The notes beneath the pieces were generated by a model, which worked only from the letters and a program-made list of their open reading frames with translations, searched no databases and had not been told where the DNA came from. Below, piece after piece: positions 9,955-18,668 of a stretch of DNA of 64,000 bases. Source of the DNA: Halopseudomonas xinjiangensis (GTDB lineage Bacteria; Pseudomonadota; Gammaproteobacteria; Pseudomonadales; Pseudomonadaceae); assembly GCF_900104945.1 (NCBI RefSeq), contig NZ_LT629736.1, positions 3,251,001-3,315,000 of the forward strand, read 5' to 3'. The translations under genes and the position numbers were made by a program. Within the stretch, counting starts at the first letter, position 1, and each line of letters begins with the position of its first letter.

Positions 9955-10066
9955 TGGTACTTAGGCGAACTAGGGTTCCGGTCTGCAGGACGCAGATGTC
10001 TGGTCCGAGAGTTTTCCGGCTTCCACGGATCAGGAAGCTACACGGCGGGATAAAAGCCCGGGAGAT
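9955..10066 (+). ncRNA. guanidine-I riboswitch (ykkC class, subtype 1)
   Basis: Three conserved ykkC blocks occur in order and at normal spacing: ACTAGGGTTCCG (9969-9980), TGGTCCGAGAG (10001-10011) and ACACGGCGGGATAAAAGCC continuing to CCGGGAGA (10040-10065). This last block is the hallmark of the subtype that binds free guanidinium and turns genes on. The GGG/CCC pairing of the last block and the stem around GTCTGCAGGACGCAGA are visible. The aptamer's 3' end overlaps the left arm of a terminator, giving a transcriptional switch. It precedes an ABC importer and creatininase-containing operon. Ligand class is from motif matching by eye. Confidence 0.9.
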
Positions 10067-10095
10067 CGTCATGACGACGCGATCCCGTGCTTTTT
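10060..10095 (+). terminator. riboswitch-controlled terminator
   Basis: GGGAGATCG pairs with CGATCCC (one bulged A) and is followed by GTGC and five T residues. The left arm is the end of the conserved aptamer core, so guanidinium binding should hold it back and let transcription continue. The terminator is 24 bases before the ATG of the first gene. Confidence 0.75.
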
Positions 10096-10118
10096 CTCAC
10101 CGTGTAGGAGTTGCACAC

Positions 10119-11126
10119 ATGACCGTCGCAATGCTGCGTTGCTTTCGCAAGACTCTGCTTGGCATCGGCCTGGCAAGCGTATCCGCCATCGCACCTGTCG
10201 CTACCCAGGCGGCCGAGACGCTGAAGATCGGAACCGTCGTCTGGGCCGGCTACGGTCCGTTCTACGTAGCTGATGAGCTTGATCTGTACAAGGATCACGG
10301 CCTGGATGTCGACCTGCAGTTTTTCAATGACCCTGCACTGATTCCTTCGGCCATTGCCAGCCGGGCGGTCGACGGCGGGATGCTCACCTACGACCAGGTG
10401 GTGGGCTCGGTTGCGAAGGGTCTCAAGCACCGAGTGGTGATGCCAATTGATTTCTCCAACGGCGGCGACGCCATCGTGGCGGAAAAGTCGATCACCTCGA
10501 TCGCTGACTTCAAGGGCAAGCCGGTTGGCTACAACCCGCTGTCTCCTTCGGATTTCCTGCTGGCCTACGCGCTGCAGACCAACGGCATGACTGAGAAAGA
10601 CATTCGCCCGGTCAACATGACGCCCGAAGGCATTCCAGGTGCCATGGCCTCCGGCAGCCTGCCGATCGGGGTGACCTACGAGCCGAACGTGTCGCAGATT
10701 TTGGGGATGGGCAACGGCGAGAAATACCACGTCGTGTATTCCTCCAAGGACGCGCCTGGCCTGATCACCGACGTGCTGGTGTTCGACCAGAGCATGATCG
10801 AGAAGCGCCCGGAGGCGATCAAGGCGATGATCCAGGGGTACCAGGCAGGGCTGGAATACATGCAGGCCAATCCGGATGAATCGGCCAGGATCATCGCTAA
10901 GGTGCTTGGTGTAATGCCTGAGGAAGCGGTCGAGCAGATGGAAGGTGCCTACAACCTACCCCTGGACGAGATGGCGAAAAGTTTCGAGCAGTCGGATGAC
11001 ACCACGTCGTTCTTCGGCAGCGGAGCAGTCATCGCTGACATCCTGGTGAAGAACCAGCAAATTCAGGCGGCGCCTGACTTCGCCGACACCTTCGATGCCA
11101 GCTTCGTTGAAGCCCTGACCGAATAA
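10119..11126 (+). CDS. ABC transporter substrate-binding protein, NMT1/THI5-like (NitT/TauT type)
   Basis: A 335-residue periplasmic binding protein. The signal peptide runs MTVAMLRCFRKTLLGIGLASV to about TQA-AET. The mature part (LKIGTVVWAGYGPFYVADELDLYKDHGLDVDLQFF, PVGYNPLSPSDFLLAYAL, ITDVLVFDQSMIEKRPEAIKAMIQGY) is typical of the nitrate/sulfonate/taurine/pyrimidine-precursor binders. Start: ATG 10119 with TAGGAG 8 bases upstream; an in-frame ATG at 10071 lies in the terminator loop. It is the first gene under the guanidine riboswitch and partners the permease and ATPase at the operon end. The ligand is inferred to be a guanidino compound. Confidence 0.9.
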   Translation: MTVAMLRCFRKTLLGIGLASVSAIAPVATQAAETLKIGTVVWAGYGPFYVADELDLYKDHGLDVDLQFFNDPALIPSAIASRAVDGGMLTYDQVVGSVAKGLKHRVVMPIDFSNGGDAIVAEKSITSIADFKGKPVGYNPLSPSDFLLAYALQTNGMTEKDIRPVNMTPEGIPGAMASGSLPIGVTYEPNVSQILGMGNGEKYHVVYSSKDAPGLITDVLVFDQSMIEKRPEAIKAMIQGYQAGLEYMQANPDESARIIAKVLGVMPEEAVEQMEGAYNLPLDEMAKSFEQSDDTTSFFGSGAVIADILVKNQQIQAAPDFADTFDASFVEALTE

Positions 11127-11187
11127 CCCAGAGGCAAGCCGGATGCTGCCGTCGGCGGCATCCGATGCATTGTCAACCGGAGGAGCC

Positions 11188-12240
11188 ATGACCACATCCA
11201 CATCCACTGCCGGGCGCGCTGCCAAGCGCAAGCCGCTGTTCCGTTATAGCGACGGTCCGCTGCCCAACATCCTTGCCATGACCTATAGTCTTGCCGGCTA
11301 CGTTGTCGGCCTCGGTCTGTTGCTCGCTGATTCCTGGCTGCTTAAGGCAGGCGGGACGCTACTGCTGGCGCATGCGATGATCATCGGTGCCTACCTGATG
11401 CATGAATTCGCGCACGGCACGATCTTCAGTGCACCGCAGCACAACGCTCGCGCTGGCGCGGTATACAGCTGGATGACCGGTGGCTGTTATGCCGAATTCC
11501 AGGATCTGCGCCGCAAGCACATGCGCCACCACGTGGACCGGGCCGATGTACTCACGTTTGACAGCAAGCAGTTCATCAACGGTCTGCCCGGCTGGGTGCG
11601 CAAGCTGATTCTGGCGCTGGAGTGGGCCTACATACCTGCCGTCGAATTACTGCTGCATGGCTACGTCATCCTGCTGCCGTTCCTCAGCGACAGCGAGAAA
11701 CAACGTGCCCGCCGTCCCGCGGTCGCCGCCACCCTGGTGGTGCGTACGGCCGCCTTTGCCCTGCTCGGCTGGTTGTCTTTTGCGGCGCTGGTGCTCTATG
11801 CGGTGGCCTGGCTGGTCATGATCACCGTGCTGCGCTTTACCGATGCCTATCAGCACACCTACGACGCCTTCGCCGTGCTGGAAGAAGGCGACATACCGGC
11901 AGACAAGCTGCGAGACCGTGCCTACGAACAGCAAAACACCTTCAGCAATCTGGTCTCGCTGCGCTGGCCAGCACTCAATCTGCTGCTGCTCAACTTCTCC
12001 TACCACAACGCCCATCACGAAAAGCCGGTTGCGCCGTGGTATCGCCTGCCAGCCCTGCATGCATCGCTGTACAGCGAGGGATATCGGCAGGTGGTGCCCA
12101 TGAAGGAGCTGGTCAGCAGCTTCCATCGTCACAGGCTACGCCGGGTCACCGACGACGACTATGGGCACTTCGGTGAGGGTCCGAAGCGCGCCGACAACTT
12201 CTATGGCGCCGTCGGCGTCTCGTTCCTGACGGCGGTATGA
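11188..12240 (+). CDS. fatty acid desaturase-like membrane di-iron oxygenase
   Basis: A 350-residue integral membrane protein of the FA_desaturase/AlkB-like superfamily. The three histidine boxes are intact: HEFAH (72-76), HMRHH (111-115) and HNAHH (273-277), with an extra His in YQHTYD (223). Hydrophobic segments near 28-68, 145-165 and 180-215 fit the usual membrane topology. Members insert double bonds or hydroxylate alkyl chains using O2 and a di-iron centre. Being second in a guanidine-riboswitch operon and lacking lipid genes around it, it more likely oxidises the imported compound than a fatty acid; this is inference. GGAGGAG gives a strong ribosome site. Confidence 0.85.
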   Translation: MTTSTSTAGRAAKRKPLFRYSDGPLPNILAMTYSLAGYVVGLGLLLADSWLLKAGGTLLLAHAMIIGAYLMHEFAHGTIFSAPQHNARAGAVYSWMTGGCYAEFQDLRRKHMRHHVDRADVLTFDSKQFINGLPGWVRKLILALEWAYIPAVELLLHGYVILLPFLSDSEKQRARRPAVAATLVVRTAAFALLGWLSFAALVLYAVAWLVMITVLRFTDAYQHTYDAFAVLEEGDIPADKLRDRAYEQQNTFSNLVSLRWPALNLLLLNFSYHNAHHEKPVAPWYRLPALHASLYSEGYRQVVPMKELVSSFHRHRLRRVTDDDYGHFGEGPKRADNFYGAVGVSFLTAV

Positions 12241-12241
12241 C

Positions 12242-13027
12242 ATGCATAGCATTGATTACAGCGGACGCACGGTACTGATCAGCGGAGCCGGCAGTGGCAT
12301 TGGTCGCGGGCTGGCCCGAGCATTCGCCGAGCAGGGCGCCCGGCTGGAGCTGCTCGATCGCGACGCCCAAGGTCTCGCCATGGTCTTGGACGAGCTCGAA
12401 GCGCTCACCGAGGTGCGCGGCCGTTGCGTCGACCTGGGCGATGATGCGGCGGTTCTGGCGTTCGCCGCCGAGTTGACCGAGCGCTGTCGTCACCTCGACG
12501 TCCTGGTGAACAACGCCGGCATCGAGAAGCCAACGCCGCTGCTCGACTCCGCAGCCGATGCCAACCAGCGCTGGCAGGCCCAGCTGGACAACAACGTGGT
12601 CAGCATGCTGCGGCTGACGCGGGCGGTCCTGCCCCTGCTTGGCGAAGGCAGCAGCGTGATCAATCAGTCGTCCATCTGGGGCCTGAGTGCGGTCGCGGGA
12701 TTTTCTGCCTATGTAGCGAGCAAACACGCGGTTATCGGACTGACGCGTTCGCTGGCCTGGGAACTTGGGGCGCAACGCATTCGTGTCAACGCGGTCTGCC
12801 CAGGCTGGATTGCCACGGATGCAGCCATGGCCTCGCTGCGCAGCATGGCCGCTGCCAGTGGTCGCAGCGAAGCCGCTGAGCTGCAGCACATTCTGTCTGC
12901 ACAGGCCATTGCTGAACTGCTGACGCCAGCGGACCTGGCCGGCACCTTTCTGTTTCTCGGAAGCTCGCTCGCAGCGGCAGTGACCGGTCAGGCGCTGGTG
13001 GTCAGTCGCGGGGAGATGATGCATTGA
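12242..13027 (+). CDS. SDR family oxidoreductase (first of two)
   Basis: A 261-residue classical short-chain dehydrogenase: Rossmann TVLISGAGSGIGRG (10-23), NNAG (VLVNNAGIEKP), the catalytic Ser in VINQSSIWG, and YVASK. NAD(P)-dependent alcohol/carbonyl oxidation is expected, perhaps of a hydroxyl made by the upstream oxygenase. The ATG starts two bases after the oxygenase stop, and its own stop overlaps the next SDR start by four bases. The cofactor is likely NAD, since the second strand ends in an acidic residue (LLDRDAQ). Confidence 0.9.
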   Translation: MHSIDYSGRTVLISGAGSGIGRGLARAFAEQGARLELLDRDAQGLAMVLDELEALTEVRGRCVDLGDDAAVLAFAAELTERCRHLDVLVNNAGIEKPTPLLDSAADANQRWQAQLDNNVVSMLRLTRAVLPLLGEGSSVINQSSIWGLSAVAGFSAYVASKHAVIGLTRSLAWELGAQRIRVNAVCPGWIATDAAMASLRSMAAASGRSEAAELQHILSAQAIAELLTPADLAGTFLFLGSSLAAAVTGQALVVSRGEMMH

Positions 13028-13785
13028 GCACGCAGTCCAGCCTGGCAGGGCAGCGCATTCTGGTGACCGGCGCCGCGACCGGTATCGGCCGCGCGTGCGT
13101 CGAGGCACTGGCCGGACGTGGCGCCCGGGTGTGGGCAGGCCATCAGGCGGGCCAGGAACCGCTGATGGATGAGCTGATCCGCTCGATGGCAGCGCAAGGC
13201 GGCACTGTTCTGGCCGTGGAGGCAGACGTCGCCGATGCGGCGTCGGTCGATGCGATGTTCGCCTCCATCGCCAAGGACGGCCCCTTGTATGGCCTGGTCA
13301 ACAACGCTGGTGTCATTCTCGAAAAACCCTTTCTGCAAACCGATGAGCGTGACTGGCGTCAGGTCATGTCGGTCGATCTGGACGGCGTCTATCGCTGCTG
13401 CCGCATTGCCCTGCAGGGAATGGCCGCCCAGGGGGGCGGGAGCATCGTCAATGTTACATCGGACCTGGGATTTTTAGGCCGCGAGGAATACGTCGCCTAT
13501 TGTGCGGCCAAGGCCGGTGTGATCGGTCTGACCCGCGCGCTGGCCCGCGAATTCGCGCCGCACATACCTATCAACGGCGTCGCACCCGGGCCGATCGAAA
13601 CGGCGATGGTGTCTCCGGCCAACATGAGCGCCGAATGGATAGCCCGTGAAGTCGCCATCCCGGCGGGGCGCCTCGGTCAGCCGGCGGAAGTGGCTGCGGC
13701 GGTATGTTTTCTGCTTTCAAGCGAAGCGAGCTTTTTCACCGGACAGATACTGGGGCCCAACGGCGGCTCCTGGATGGGTGGCTGA
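13024..13785 (+). CDS. SDR family oxidoreductase (second of two)
   Basis: A 253-residue short-chain dehydrogenase resembling FabG/glucose dehydrogenase-type enzymes: ILVTGAATGIGRACVEAL, VNNAGVILEKP, the catalytic Ser in NVTSDLG and YCAAK, then PGPIETAM. It differs enough from its neighbour to suggest a separate step rather than a recent copy. Start is a TTG at 13024 inside the TTGA overlap with the first SDR, so translation is probably coupled. A pair of dehydrogenases after an oxygenase would suit alcohol to aldehyde to acid or lactam oxidation. Confidence 0.88.
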   Translation: MSTQSSLAGQRILVTGAATGIGRACVEALAGRGARVWAGHQAGQEPLMDELIRSMAAQGGTVLAVEADVADAASVDAMFASIAKDGPLYGLVNNAGVILEKPFLQTDERDWRQVMSVDLDGVYRCCRIALQGMAAQGGGSIVNVTSDLGFLGREEYVAYCAAKAGVIGLTRALAREFAPHIPINGVAPGPIETAMVSPANMSAEWIAREVAIPAGRLGQPAEVAAAVCFLLSSEASFFTGQILGPNGGSWMGG

Positions 13786-14663
13786 TGCTGCGGCCGGAGC
13801 TCGTTCTGATATTCGCCACCCTCCTCTGGGGCACCAGCTGGATCCCTCTGCGCGCTTTCGCAGAAGCCGGCATAAGCGGCATGCCCATGGTATTTGCCAG
13901 TTACGGATTGATTGCGCTGGTGGCCGTGCCGCTTCTCTGGCGGCAGCGCAGAGCGTGGCGGGGACAGGCGTGGGGGCTGCTGGCAATCGTGATCTTCGGC
14001 GGCTGGGCTAACACCGCGCTGATCTCGTCGCTGTCGCTGGGTCACGATATCGTCCGGCTCATGCTGCTGTTCTACCTGGCGCCAGTGTGGGCTGTGCTGG
14101 GCGGCTGGCTGATGCTGCGCGAGCAACTCACGGCGCTGCGTCTCGGTGCTCTTGCATTGGCGATGGTCGGCATCGCGCTCACCCTGGGGATCGGCCTGGA
14201 CACACTCAAGCCGCTTGAGGGTGTCGATTGGCTGGCCCTGAGCGCCGGCTTCGCCTTTGCCATGAATAACCTGGCGACCCGCGCCGCCAACCGCATTCCG
14301 TTGTTCAGCAAGACCTTCGCAGCCTTTATCGGCAGTGTGGCCTTCGCCGGTGTGGCCTGTTTGCTACTTGATCAGGGCCTGCCAACGCTCCGCCCCGTTA
14401 CCTGGGCACTGGTAGCCCTGTTCGCCGCTGGTTGGTTGCTCGCAACGCTGGCCGCGCAGTACGGCGTCACGCACCTGGAAGCCAGCCGGGCGGCCGTAAT
14501 CATCGTTTTCGAGCTGATCGCTGCCGTGCTGTCAGCGGCCTGGCTCGGCGACGTGCCGCTTGGGCCGCGTGAGTGTGTCGGCGCCGCTTTGGTGTGTGTC
14601 GCTGCGGTGCTCGCCGCCTGGCCAGACCAGCCCCAACCTGCCCTGCCGAGGAGTGCAACCTGA
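13785..14663 (+). CDS. EamA/DMT family transporter
   Basis: A 292-residue membrane protein with about ten transmembrane helices in two EamA repeats (ATLLWGTSWIPLRAFAEAG at the start, a second unit from about WLALSAGFAFAMNN). The superfamily also holds the SMR guanidinium exporters, though those are four-helix dimers. The ATG overlaps the SDR stop by one base (TGATG); the frame is open further upstream but that part lies in the SDR gene. Likely role: export of a pathway product or excess guanidinium, or a second uptake route. Direction cannot be read from sequence. Confidence 0.88.
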   Translation: MLRPELVLIFATLLWGTSWIPLRAFAEAGISGMPMVFASYGLIALVAVPLLWRQRRAWRGQAWGLLAIVIFGGWANTALISSLSLGHDIVRLMLLFYLAPVWAVLGGWLMLREQLTALRLGALALAMVGIALTLGIGLDTLKPLEGVDWLALSAGFAFAMNNLATRAANRIPLFSKTFAAFIGSVAFAGVACLLLDQGLPTLRPVTWALVALFAAGWLLATLAAQYGVTHLEASRAAVIIVFELIAAVLSAAWLGDVPLGPRECVGAALVCVAAVLAAWPDQPQPALPRSAT

Positions 14664-15439
14664 TGACAAGCGTATTCATGGACCAGATCAGCTGGATCGA
14701 GTATCAGCAGCGGGTCAATGATGGTGCAGTAGTGTTTCTGCCCTGCGGCGCTACCGAGCAGCACGGGCCGCACCTGCCGCTGGGCACCGATGCGCTGCTT
14801 TCTACAGCAATAGCCGCAGACGCCGCGCGCCAGGTCGACGGCATCGTCGCGCCGGCTCTGGCCTATGGGTACAAGTCACAACCCAAGTGCGGCGGCGGCC
14901 AGCATTTCTGCGGCACCACCAGCCTGGACGGCGCGACGTTGATTGCGCTGGTGCAGGACGGAGTGCGTGAATTCGCCCGGCATGGCGTGAAACGGTTGGT
15001 GCTGGTGCTGGGGCACTATGAGAACCAGTGGTTCGTGGCTGAAGGCATTCAGTTGGCGCTGCGCGAGCTGGGAACGGCCTGCGAGCTGGTAGTCATGCGC
15101 CTGGAGCATTGGGACTACTGCAGCGAAAAGACCTTGGCGGATGTTTTCCCTGACGGATTTCCGGGCTTTGCCCTGGAGCATGCAGCCGTGATCGAGACAT
15201 CCCTCATGCTGCACTACCACCCCTCGCTGGTCCGTCTGGATCTCATTCCTGACGACGGCCCGGCGGAGTTTCCGCTGTATGACATCTATCCCACACGTAC
15301 CGAATGGGTACCGCCTTCTGGTGTTCTTTCGTCGGCGCGGGGCTCGGATGCGGCCAAGGGGGCGCGCATGGCGGAGGATATCGTCGGAGGTATCGTCTCC
15401 GCAGTGCGCCATGAATTCTGCCTGGAGGTCACGTCATGA
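14663..15439 (+). CDS. creatininase family amidohydrolase
   Basis: A 258-residue protein very close to the Pseudomonas putida creatininase pattern along its length (259 residues there). Metal ligands fit: Glu32, His34 (TEQHG), Asp43, His118 and Glu120 (GHYEN), and His173 (LEHAAVIETS). GYKSQPKCGGGQHF and GTTSLDGATL also match. Of two Trp residues said to line the creatinine pocket, the first is kept (Trp150), the second is Phe169. It should hydrolyse a cyclic amide such as creatinine or a relative. No creatinase or urease follows, so creatine breakdown is incomplete here. ATG overlaps the EamA stop (TGATG). Confidence 0.9.
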   Translation: MTSVFMDQISWIEYQQRVNDGAVVFLPCGATEQHGPHLPLGTDALLSTAIAADAARQVDGIVAPALAYGYKSQPKCGGGQHFCGTTSLDGATLIALVQDGVREFARHGVKRLVLVLGHYENQWFVAEGIQLALRELGTACELVVMRLEHWDYCSEKTLADVFPDGFPGFALEHAAVIETSLMLHYHPSLVRLDLIPDDGPAEFPLYDIYPTRTEWVPPSGVLSSARGSDAAKGARMAEDIVGGIVSAVRHEFCLEVTS

Positions 15440-16218
15440 GCCAGGTTCTCAAGCTGTGGCCGTTGCTGACCGCCACCCACCGCTACGACAAGTCGTTCTC
15501 AACCCGCAACCGTGGCGAAGGTACGCTCATCGAGGCGCCGATCCTCGCGTACCTGATCGAAACCCGGCAAGGGCGTGTGCTCTTCGACGTTGGCTGTGAC
15601 TATCACAAGCTCAACGATCCGGAGGCGCGTCAGCGCTGGTTCGATCCGGTGGAGTTTCCGATGGGTCCGCCGGAGATGAGCGAGGAGCAGCGGCTCACCT
15701 CGCACCTTCAGGGTATGGGCCTGACCCCGGCGGATATCGACCTGGTATTCCTCAGCCATCTGCACTTCGATCATGCCGGCGGCCTGTGCGAAGTCTGCGG
15801 AGCTGACGTGCATGTTCACGAGGCCGAGCTGCAGGCAGCCCGCGAGCCCGCCGACAATGCCTATTTCGCAGACGATTTCGCCGGTGACGTGCGCTGGAAG
15901 CCGCAGCGCGACGAATACGATCTGCTACCGGGCCTGCGCGCGATCAACACGCCCGGACATACCGCTGGGCACATGTCGTTGCTGATCGAGCTGCCCGAGG
16001 GCGCACCGGTGATCCTCGCCGGCGATGCCGCCGACCTCACGGAAAACCTTGAGGACGAAGTCGCGCCGGGTCTGTGCTGGCGGGACCGTGAAGACATGGC
16101 GGTAGACAGTATCCGCAAGCTCAAGCGCGTCGCAGCCGAGACCGGCGCTGAGCTCTGGCCGAATCACGATATCGCCTTCTGGCGCACCCTGAAACGCTTC
16201 CCGGAGTACCACGCATGA
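15436..16218 (+). CDS. metallo-beta-lactamase-fold hydrolase, lactonase-like
   Basis: A 260-residue MBL-fold enzyme of the N-acyl homoserine lactonase (AttM/AiiA) type. The zinc motif HLHFDH (His108, His110, Asp112, His113), TPGHTAGH, AGDAAD and a late His (WPNHD) are visible. It probably opens a lactone, lactam or other ring or ester in the same pathway; quorum quenching is less likely given the setting. ATGA overlap with the creatininase stop, and again with the next gene, argues for coupled expression. Confidence 0.88.
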   Translation: MSQVLKLWPLLTATHRYDKSFSTRNRGEGTLIEAPILAYLIETRQGRVLFDVGCDYHKLNDPEARQRWFDPVEFPMGPPEMSEEQRLTSHLQGMGLTPADIDLVFLSHLHFDHAGGLCEVCGADVHVHEAELQAAREPADNAYFADDFAGDVRWKPQRDEYDLLPGLRAINTPGHTAGHMSLLIELPEGAPVILAGDAADLTENLEDEVAPGLCWRDREDMAVDSIRKLKRVAAETGAELWPNHDIAFWRTLKRFPEYHA

Positions 16219-16982
16219 ACGTACCCGATCGCTATCTGGGCGTTTGGCAGCGCACCCTGCTGCGCACCGCCGACGGTTTCGAAGACCGCACTACGCGCGT
16301 GTTCTGGCTGCAGACCGAGTCGCTGCACGCGGACATTCGCATTCCCGAACGGCAACCGCGCACCTTGCAGCAGCGCTGCGCACAGGCTGGTTTCGCCGGC
16401 GTGACAGAAGTCGAAGGCGACCTGTGCCGCTGGCATCGGCGGCTCGACTTCCATCCGGAGAGCCCGGAAGACGTTGGCCGAATGACCTTCGTCAGTGCCG
16501 ACGAATTGCACGAACAGGCACTGGACGGTAGTTTCCTGGAGATCTGGACGCGCTTGCCGGACTCTATCGGCCGATCCGAGGCGCTGTGGCTGAGTGATTC
16601 CGAGCAGGGCGGACGCAAGGCTTGCCTGCTCAGGGCCGGCGACTATTTTCTGTTTGCAGCCAGCCGTCCGCAACCATTGGCCGGAGATCTACCGCTATGC
16701 GAGCGGGTGGCGACGTCCTCCGCCGAGCAGGCCGAGCATATGCTGGCCATGGAACTGTCTTTCGGTCGCATCGACTCCAGCGGGCACAGCTGGCGTGTCG
16801 AGCTGTCGACTTTGCCGGGCCGCTCGGGCAAAGCCTTGCTGCTCAACCCTAACCCGACGACGCCGTTGTCCGACTGGCCCGTCCAGCGACTGGCCGGGCT
16901 GGGCGCCTATTCGCCGGCAGCCGGTTGGCAACGAGCGGCGGTCCCTGCCCTCCGTCATCTCACCGAGGAGGCCCCGGCATGA
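16215..16982 (+). CDS. conserved hypothetical protein in the guanidine operon
   Basis: A 255-residue soluble protein I do not recognise. It opens MNVPDRYLGVWQRTLLRT and has many Trp and aromatic residues with alternating polarity (RVFWLQTESLHADIRIPE, VEGDLCRWHRRLDFHP, FLEIWTRLPDS), which suggests a beta-barrel or lipocalin-like fold. No signal peptide, no metal motif and no Walker motif. Its four-base overlaps with the hydrolase before and the permease after show that it belongs to the operon. Possible roles: binding protein, isomerase or enzyme; no function assigned. Confidence 0.8.
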   Translation: MNVPDRYLGVWQRTLLRTADGFEDRTTRVFWLQTESLHADIRIPERQPRTLQQRCAQAGFAGVTEVEGDLCRWHRRLDFHPESPEDVGRMTFVSADELHEQALDGSFLEIWTRLPDSIGRSEALWLSDSEQGGRKACLLRAGDYFLFAASRPQPLAGDLPLCERVATSSAEQAEHMLAMELSFGRIDSSGHSWRVELSTLPGRSGKALLLNPNPTTPLSDWPVQRLAGLGAYSPAAGWQRAAVPALRHLTEEAPA

Positions 16983-17821
16983 ACGCTCAGGCACCCCTGC
17001 CGGTATCCGGCATCCCGACGAAACCGGCCCGGCGGCGCAGTCGCTGGTGGACCATACGCGGCGACATGGGCGGGCGCAGCGTCGCCATTCTTGCCGCGGT
17101 CGGCCTATCCGCGCCCTTCGTAGCCTGGTGGCTGTATACCGCGCTGGGGCTGGCCGATCCCCTGTTCATGCCGAGCCCCGAGGCGGTGGTGCAACGTATC
17201 TGGCGCTGGGCGACCGAGGAAGGCCTGATGGGGGACATTGGCATCAGCGTGTATCGAGTGATGGCCGGGTTTCTGCTGTCTGCGCTGGTTGCGCTGCCGC
17301 TGGGCCTGTATCTGGGCACCTATCGCACGGTGCAGGCGACACTGGAGCCTTTGATCGATTTCATCCGCTACATGCCCGCGGTGGCGTTCATTCCGCTGGT
17401 CATGCTCTGGGTCGGCATCGACGAAGGTTCGAAGATACTGATTATTTTCATCGGTACCTTTTTCCAGATGGCCCTGATGGCTGCCGAGGACGTGCGCCGG
17501 GTGCCGATGGCGCAGATCGAGGCCGCGCAGACCATGGGCGCCACGCGTAGCGAGATCATTCGCCTGGTGGTTCTGCCATCGGCGCGCCCAGCGCTGCTGG
17601 ATACCCTGCGTATCACCTGTGGCTGGGCCTGGACCTACCTGGTCGTGGCCGAACTGGTGGCGTCCAACTCCGGCCTGGGTTACGCCATCCTGCGGGCCCA
17701 GCGCTACATGCACACCGACAAGATCTTTGCCGGCATTCTGTTGATCGGTCTGATAGGCCTGCTCACCGACCAGGCTTTTCGCTGGGTCGGCCGCCGCGCA
17801 TTCCACTGGCAGAAGAGGTAA
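16979..17821 (+). CDS. ABC transporter permease (NitT/TauT type)
   Basis: A 280-residue BPD-transporter permease with about six transmembrane helices after a basic N-terminus. The EAA loop is clear (IEAAQTMGATRSEIIRLVVLPSARPALLDTLRI), and YMPAVAFIPLVMLWVGIDEGSK is the family signature of nitrate/taurine-type permeases. The ATGA overlap with the preceding gene fixes the start; the longer frame from 16925 lies inside that gene. It should form a homodimer with the downstream ATPase and the first-gene binding protein. Confidence 0.92.
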   Translation: MNAQAPLPVSGIPTKPARRRSRWWTIRGDMGGRSVAILAAVGLSAPFVAWWLYTALGLADPLFMPSPEAVVQRIWRWATEEGLMGDIGISVYRVMAGFLLSALVALPLGLYLGTYRTVQATLEPLIDFIRYMPAVAFIPLVMLWVGIDEGSKILIIFIGTFFQMALMAAEDVRRVPMAQIEAAQTMGATRSEIIRLVVLPSARPALLDTLRITCGWAWTYLVVAELVASNSGLGYAILRAQRYMHTDKIFAGILLIGLIGLLTDQAFRWVGRRAFHWQKR

Positions 17822-17825
17822 TACC

Positions 17826-18668
17826 ATGGACAAGCCGTGTATCAGCATTCACCAGGTGGGCAAGCAGTTCGCGACCCGCAGCCAGACCATCGAGGCCCTG
17901 CACAACGTCGACCTGGATATCCGTCCGAACGAGTTCGTCACCTTCGTGGGCGCCTCGGGCTGCGGCAAGTCCACACTGCTGCGCATTCTTGCCGGGCTGG
18001 AAACGCACAGCAGCGGTGAGCTGTTATTGCATGATCAGCCAATCGATGGCCCGGGTGTCGACAGGGCGATGGTGTTCCAGCATTACAGCCTCTATCCCTG
18101 GCTGACGGTAATGCAGAACATCAAGTTCTGTCGCCAGCTCAAGGTCATTTCAGACGGCGTTCACAGCCAGGCCGATGTGGAAACGGCCAGCGGCCGCGCC
18201 GATGCGCTGCTCAACCTGATGGGCCTGGCGCCGTTCGCCGATGCCTACCCCAGCCAGCTGTCAGGTGGCATGCAGCAGCGGGTGGCGATTGCCCGGGCGC
18301 TGATGCCCCGGCCGGACATTCTGTTGATGGACGAGCCCTTCGGGGCGCTGGATGCGCAGACAAGAGAAGTGATGCACGACCTGATTCGCCACGTGCATCG
18401 GCTGGAGAAGACCACCATCGTATTCGTCACCCACGATGTGGAAGAAGCAATATACCTTGGCAGCCGCATCGTACTCATGGCGCCGCGCCCAGGGCGCATC
18501 GATACCCTCTACAATGTTCCGTTGCCCGAGGCTCGCCATCAGGATATGAAGCTGGAGTCGGCCTTCATCGAGCTCAAACGACAGATTCTTGCGCGAATCC
18601 GCGAAACGTCAGGGGTGCAGACCGACCTCGACCAGCTCGCGAAGCTCACGCAGGGGGCGTCCGTCTGA
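17826..18668 (+). CDS. ABC transporter ATP-binding protein (NitT/TauT type)
   Basis: A 280-residue nucleotide-binding subunit: Walker A GASGCGKST (42-50), Q-loop VFQHYSLYPWLTV, signature LSGGMQQR near 150, Walker B ILLMDEPFGALD and switch THDVEEA. It starts four bases after the permease stop. Length and C-terminal tail match SsuB/TauB/NrtD types. It is the last gene of the operon; no clear terminator is seen before sutA. Confidence 0.94.
   Translation: MDKPCISIHQVGKQFATRSQTIEALHNVDLDIRPNEFVTFVGASGCGKSTLLRILAGLETHSSGELLLHDQPIDGPGVDRAMVFQHYSLYPWLTVMQNIKFCRQLKVISDGVHSQADVETASGRADALLNLMGLAPFADAYPSQLSGGMQQRVAIARALMPRPDILLMDEPFGALDAQTREVMHDLIRHVHRLEKTTIVFVTHDVEEAIYLGSRIVLMAPRPGRIDTLYNVPLPEARHQDMKLESAFIELKRQILARIRETSGVQTDLDQLAKLTQGASV

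Follow-up and report, generated by a model that had tools for sequence, protein, structure and literature searches.

What does a bacterium do with an operon that places an ATP-binding cassette (ABC) importer, a membrane di-iron enzyme and a creatininase homologue behind a guanidine riboswitch? The question is raised by a 64,000-nucleotide stretch of Halopseudomonas xinjiangensis DNA (contig NZ_LT629736.1, positions 3,251,001 to 3,315,000; hereafter the window, on which unprefixed coordinates are counted), where a Guanidine-I riboswitch and ten tightly packed genes, all on the plus strand, occupy positions 9959-18668. The operon is best explained as a nitrogen-scavenging module that converts a substituted (alkylated or cyclic) guanidine into free guanidine, a reading to which we assign a probability of roughly two in three, since three findings agree: the homology of one product to the lyase MgdL, the presence in related operons of a hydrolase of the guanylurea hydrolase type, and co-occurrence with a carboxylase pathway. 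The original prediction, made from the DNA sequence, had proposed that an alkyl- or cyclic guanidino compound is oxidised and guanidine or ammonia set free; its direction is supported by these findings, the substrate, the order of steps and any direct release of ammonia by the operon being putative.

Riboswitch at the head of the operon

The leader had been predicted to carry a Guanidine-I element and a terminator, and both were recovered. A covariance search matched RF00442 to positions 9959-10066 (+) over the whole model (positions 1-107 of 107) with 89.5 bits against a gathering threshold of 63 (E 9.5e-15), and no other Rfam family passed its threshold there. The terminator hairpin at 10053-10093 (+) has a folding energy of -18.8 kcal/mol (z -3.4, equalled by 1 of 200 shuffles), and its 3' arm enters a U-run; a simple consensus terminator scan returned nothing at this hairpin, and a promoter scan upstream of the operon gave no match. 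The 5' arm of the hairpin is shared with the 3' end of the aptamer, the expression platform thereby overlapping the aptamer, and because of this overlap the element would be an ON switch acting by antitermination, in which guanidine binding should prevent formation of the terminator hairpin.

Relatives of guanidine-releasing enzymes

The product of the gene at 16215-16982 (+), termed UNK, had no Pfam or NCBIfam match and gave two chance-level matches only when compared by sequence with solved structures. On sequence grounds it is a relative of MgdL and a predicted hemiaminal lyase of the N-(hydroxymethyl)guanidine lyase type. MgdL was published as an N-(hydroxymethyl)guanidine lyase in 2025, its activity needing Asp49 and Arg51 and its model being a beta-barrel, and in Vreelandella boliviensis mgdH and mgdL are the two genes between gca and atzF (PMC12508155). 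The published V. boliviensis layout (PMC12508155) was also found within the order of the window genome, at a locus (L107) with the succession Guanidine-I, ABC genes, cgdA, cgdB, Guanidine-II, gca, 2-oxoglutarate (2OG) oxygenase, UNK homologue and atzF, where the protein in the MgdL position carries the Asp49 and Arg51 of the published numbering; it was assigned as MgdL by operon layout and residue numbering, without an accession. UNK is 28% identical to this protein (pairwise E 3e-25), and a profile-profile comparison with the MgdL set gave a probability of 99.9% (E 8e-38). Asp40 and Arg42 of UNK align with the catalytic Asp49 and Arg51, the former pair being invariant in 38 aligned UNK proteins (that of the window and 37 of 53 from related loci) and the latter in 14 aligned MgdL-type proteins, of 17 distinct ones. 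Further residues of UNK (Trp31, Gln33, Glu100, Glu109, and Trp111) also align with positions conserved across the MgdL set, and its predicted structure is a lipocalin-like barrel; no MgdL-type entry was listed when structures were searched with this model, an absence that carries no weight. A search of 390 genomes of the same order with the window genome's own paralogue of UNK as query returned 19 places in 18 genomes, with the MgdL-type gene beside a 2OG oxygenase in 15 and inside the operon of the di-iron enzyme in four.

The second finding comes from relatives of the operon. With the di-iron protein (DES) as query, the best 80 of 97 relatives were kept as loci, and an isochorismatase-fold hydrolase gene (ISO) was identified in 45 of the 80 operons; it is not in the window operon, where the genes for the creatininase homologue (CRN) and a metallo-beta-lactamase-fold hydrolase (MBL) abut with no gene between them. 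The ISO of locus L007 and a cysteine hydrolase of plasmid pMET-2 (CP098607) share 64.5% identity over 203 residues, this plasmid being, in a tie with two other wastewater Pseudomonas plasmids, the closest of 896 plasmid records, and identities of the other relatives' ISO proteins to this enzyme go down to 53.7% (among 50 of 52 compared). A guanylurea hydrolase of pMET-2 was assayed in PMC9800807, and we identify the cysteine hydrolase with that enzyme (BB_00025 of PMC9800807) because plasmid, family and adjacent deaminase gene agree. Two other assignments of ISO were rejected: as an N-carbamoylsarcosine amidase it scored 52 bits to 26st against 242 to the biuret-hydrolase-type 6azo, and as biuret hydrolase proper it reached 272.6 bits against a cut-off of 370, its identity to 6azo being 53.6%, compared with 64.5% for the pMET-2 enzyme. 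Guanylurea is carbamoyl-guanidine and creatinine is a cyclic acylguanidine, so that the bond cleaved would be of the acyl-guanidine type for ISO as well as for CRN.

The guanylurea hydrolase region of pMET-2 (CP098607 16656-25264, locus L113) shares further genes with the window operon, its permease being 59% and its ATPase 56% identical, and may have been drawn from the same operon family, since this type of permease and ATPase is common to both. It differs in its substrate-binding protein (SBP), only 34% identical, and in that the stretch read has a deaminase gene instead of DES, UNK, CRN or MBL genes, whereas the window operon is without a guanylurea hydrolase gene.

Urea/guanidine carboxylase in the same genomes

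The window genome is a single contig (C1) of 3.54 Mb with three Guanidine-I elements in total. One of them (C1:260474-260574) heads an ABC permease, an ATPase, cgdA, cgdB, and a 1202-residue carboxylase with 1885.7 bits on the urea carboxylase model (cut-off 1303.85). The window had been described as free of urea carboxylase, rightly so, as the only site in the genome over this cut-off (C1:253736-257323) lies outside it behind this other riboswitch. The model cannot tell the urea from the guanidine type, and the enzyme is read as a guanidine carboxylase because the riboswitch and cgdAB accompany the gene; an allophanate hydrolase homologue (L117; 44.5% identity over 593 residues) is encoded apart from the carboxylase set. 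Guanidine made by the window operon probably goes to this set. Guanidinase was rejected as a sink, PF00491 (ureohydrolase) having no match in the window genome.

Homologues of DES with at least 42% identity were identified in 18 of the 390 genomes of the order, and the carboxylase cut-off was passed by 16 of the 18 compared with 116 of 390 overall (Fisher p 1.5e-7, the 42% threshold having been picked after seeing the data). The two exceptions are G059, in which the carboxylase lies in two pieces at contig ends, and G279, which falls below the cut-off; at 43% identity or more, 15 of 15 genomes pass. Among ten DES genomes checked, DES lies near a Guanidine-I element in four (G094, G170, G360, and G025). 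The guanidine carboxylase operon (gca, cgdAB, and atzF) has the riboswitch class in common with the window operon, occurs in the same genome, and has genes in the fetched DNA of 26 of the 80 DES loci; it degrades guanidine, whereas the window operon probably makes it.

The di-iron enzyme and its hydrolases

DES (11188-12240, +; PF00487, E 4e-34) has the invariant histidines His72/76, 111/114/115, 223, and 273/276/277, and its predicted fold matches AlkB, which together place it by histidine boxes and fold in the FA_desaturase/AlkB membrane di-iron superfamily; compared with the sequences of solved structures it had no match at E 1. It matches H. pelagia at 89%.

CRN (14663-15439, +) exceeds the TIGR04448 creatininase equivalog cut-off (370.5 against 235 bits) and is 49.8% identical (125 of 251 residues) to the P. 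putida creatininase (1j2t; also 1v7z). All the metal ligands, which we take to be Glu34, His36, Asp45, His120, and Glu122, are kept in the window protein, as is Trp154, presumably one of two substrate-covering residues; it differs from the P. putida enzyme at the other, Trp174, which is Phe. Position 174 is Phe in 45, Tyr in seven, and His in one of 53 aligned operon-type CRN proteins and Phe in three distant ones, Trp occurring in 0 of the 56 sequences; one of the 53 (L025) has no residue at Glu34. Metal ligands that are kept together with a replaced Trp174 suggest that the chemistry is unchanged and the ring a different one. It also differs from the P. putida system in that no creatinase partner was found: PF01321 (Creatinase_N) had no match in the window genome at E 0.001, against matches in 13 of 14 control genomes.

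The two short-chain dehydrogenases, SDR1 (12242-13027, +; PF13561, E 1.7e-51) and SDR2 (13024-13785, +; TTG start; PF13561, E 7.8e-57), go with CRN. Among the 59 loci whose DNA extends 6.5 kb or more downstream from DES, the basis of all module counts here, SDR and CRN were both present in 40, SDR only in none, CRN only in five and neither in 14 (nominal p 9e-10, only indicative because the loci are related); collapsed at 75% DES identity, the loci formed ten groups with both, three with CRN only and ten with neither. In two of the three CRN-only groups the CRN is a distant homologue (29-30%) in which Glu122 and Trp154 are missing, and in the third (Paraburkholderia) an SDR2-like gene (42-45%) lies immediately upstream on the other strand. 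The distant homologue adjoins a glutamine-synthetase-like gene (GLNT; L068:18146, L071:1153, and L078:6576), and in L071 and L078 cgdA, cgdB, and a carboxylase gene come next after the GLNT region.

MBL (15436-16218, +; PF00753) is an AiiA-like hydrolase with a conserved HLHFDH motif; its nearest solved structures are acyl-homoserine lactone (AHL) lactonases, and it scores below the lactonase equivalog cut-offs (AiiA 134.8 against 375 bits, AttM 129.7 against 390). An MBL or CRN gene was identified in 59 of 59 loci, 57 times in the operon and twice elsewhere in the fetched DNA (L077 and L081), and DES therefore seems always to need a hydrolase.

Proposed pathway and competing explanations

In the route that we consider best, the ABC system would import the substituted guanidine and DES would hydroxylate a carbon adjacent to a guanidino nitrogen, after which CRN or MBL would open or deacylate the product. 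The hydroxylated carbon could either be split off by UNK as an MgdL-like lyase or be oxidised by the SDRs, for an acylguanidine hydrolase (CRN, in relatives also ISO) to cut. The guanidine released would bind the riboswitch and switch the operon on, a product induction, and would feed the carboxylase set encoded elsewhere in the genome. Of this scheme, the RNA element, the homologies, the conservation of catalytic residues and the co-occurrence are observed, and the substrate, each reaction and the directions of import and export are inferred.

Several points weigh against this explanation. To our knowledge no activity has been described for the DES family, nor do we know of a link of MBL to guanidine chemistry, and a ferredoxin or reductase for DES is absent among the operon genes. 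If the DES criterion is loosened to E 1e-60, the carboxylase cut-off is passed by only 18 of 26 genomes (p 2e-5), and this cut-off, taken from the urea carboxylase model, does not separate the urea type from the guanidine type. DES proteins of 45-46% identity were not near a Guanidine-I element in six of the ten genomes checked, where Guanidine-II was not searched. In 12 of the 59 loci no UNK gene lies within the operon range; L043 has it further downstream and L068 has the paralogue, and ten have none in the fetched DNA. The window genome, moreover, already has an MgdH/MgdL-like pair.

That pair would make a simple demethylation of methylguanidine redundant. A favoured candidate for the substrate, a special case of the explanation above, is a creatinine-type ring, although we hold it tentatively and at well below even odds. 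In one variant, DES would hydroxylate creatinine or glycocyamidine at carbon 5, the ring would be opened by MBL or CRN, and UNK would split the alpha-hydroxy product into (methyl)guanidine and glyoxylate; in the other, the SDRs would produce a 5-oxo ring, CRN would open it, and ISO would cut oxalyl-guanidine into (methyl)guanidine and oxalate. Methylguanidine would then pass to the MgdH/MgdL-like pair. The creatininase equivalog score of CRN, its co-occurrence with the SDRs beside a constant hydrolase, the exchange of Trp174 for Phe, Tyr or His as if for a changed ring, and the lack of a creatinase domain in the genome are consistent with this, and creatinine has been reported to be converted chemically into creatol and methylguanidine (PMC3775425). 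Set against these are that the substrate is read from the genes, that CRN does not accompany DES in 14 of the 59 loci, and that Trp174 itself is not conserved. Stated more broadly, the operon might encode an oxidative pathway, so far undescribed, that leads from a creatinine-type ring or other cyclic acylguanidine to guanidine or methylguanidine by di-iron hydroxylation, dehydrogenation, ring opening by a retuned creatininase and a final cut by an MgdL-type lyase or a guanylurea-hydrolase-type amidase; this we likewise regard as a conjecture more apt to fail than to hold.

The main rival, also a special case, takes DES for a second methyl- or dimethylguanidine hydroxylase, a di-iron stand-in for MgdH working with UNK, the remaining genes processing formylguanidine, formaldehyde or unrelated compounds. 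The pairing of DES and UNK does parallel mgdH-mgdL, but an MBL or CRN kept in all 59 loci would be superfluous for demethylation and the genome already holds its MgdH/MgdL-like pair, and we judge this rival unlikely, with perhaps one chance in four. More improbable still is that the operon detoxifies or exports guanidine, with enzymes that modify guanidine directly: guanidine as the inducer and the DMT genes here and behind a second riboswitch would fit, but an ABC importer with its SBP stands in the operon, guanidine is a product and not a substrate of MgdL- and GuuH-type enzymes, and DES goes with the carboxylase. Ordinary creatinine use, with CRN making creatine and the other genes accessory, is very improbable despite the creatininase equivalog match, as it would leave the guanidine riboswitch, DES, UNK, and ISO without purpose in the face of the changed Trp174 and of a genome without Creatinase_N, which led us to reject canonical creatinine degradation there.

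Comparison with known systems

The closest described system is the mgdH-mgdL module of V. boliviensis, which has Guanidine-I control, an ABC importer and an oxygenase accompanied by an MgdL-type protein with the same Asp/Arg pair in common with the window (PMC12508155). In the window a membrane di-iron enzyme replaces the 2OG dioxygenase, SDR, CRN, MBL, and DMT genes are extra, and the carboxylase set lies outside the operon (PMC12508155). New here are the kinship of UNK with MgdL, ISO in the relatives, the carboxylase set with further Guanidine-I elements, the changes in CRN, and the linkage of SDR and CRN. No description of the operon was found in the guanidine riboswitch literature searched, and a prior mention in subscription papers outside that search is possible. 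The operon supplies specific candidates, among them what may be a new class of oxygenase that releases guanidine, in hosts that can be cultured (Pseudomonas, Stutzerimonas, Halopseudomonas, and Paraburkholderia). The creatinine-type route, if true, would give methylguanidine and guanidine a biological source in proteobacteria that are common in soils and in the sea.

Operon layout and conservation

The ten genes and their families agreed with those predicted, by Pfam and NCBIfam matches on one strand. The importer is made up of an NMT1/THI5-like SBP (10119-11126, +; PF09084), which reached 85.7 bits on the urea-type SBP model TIGR03427 (cut-off 333.9), a permease (16979-17821, +; PF00528), and an ATPase (17826-18668, +; PF00005), and an EamA/DMT-family transporter is encoded at 13785-14663 (+; PF00892). 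Overlaps had been claimed almost throughout; four of the nine junctions overlap by four bases and two (SDR2/DMT and DMT/CRN) by one base when translation is taken to begin at the ATG codons at 13785 and 14663 instead of at the CTG codon before them, whereas gaps of 61 (SBP/DES), 1 and 4 bases separate the remaining three.

The third Guanidine-I element of the genome (C1:1818461-1818563) heads a DMT gene 53% identical to that of the window, a placement which hints that the EamA-type DMT protein may carry guanidine, and has genes for a 2OG oxygenase, an MgdL-type protein and an SBP on its divergent side. This layout makes a second guanidine island in the window genome (L005:2460-3643 and L086:8844-10888). 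An ISO homologue (55%) is present in the window genome at C1:968461 (L115:7459-9197), beside another NMT1-type SBP and away from the three Guanidine-I elements.

Far from the unusual arrangement that it had been taken for, the operon is conserved in tens of species. The 80 DES loci belong mostly to Pseudomonadaceae, Burkholderiales, and other beta- and gammaproteobacteria, Acidithiobacillus and Thiobacillus included, and the usual gene order in relatives is SBP-DES-SDR1-SDR2-DMT-CRN-ISO-MBL-UNK-permease-ATPase; CRN was identified in 45, MBL in 39, UNK in 47, and ISO in 38 of the 59 loci. A pattern search found Guanidine-I in 61 of the 80 loci, with cmscan confirming seven of seven tested, and cmscan of the 19 pattern-negative loci added Guanidine-I in L055 and Guanidine-II in L049, L080, and L084. 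Guanidine-I was thus counted in 62 loci and any guanidine riboswitch in 65, of which 54 were called by pattern alone; some of the loci that have none are truncated at contig ends.

Four of the 80 loci (L040, L043, L063, and L068) have a second, diverged DES copy (38-47%), which in L068 is followed by an MgdL-type gene. SBP, DES (54-55%), ISO, and MBL genes also occur on a metagenome-assembled genome contig titled Klebsiella pneumoniae (L066), which is probably a misassigned contig.

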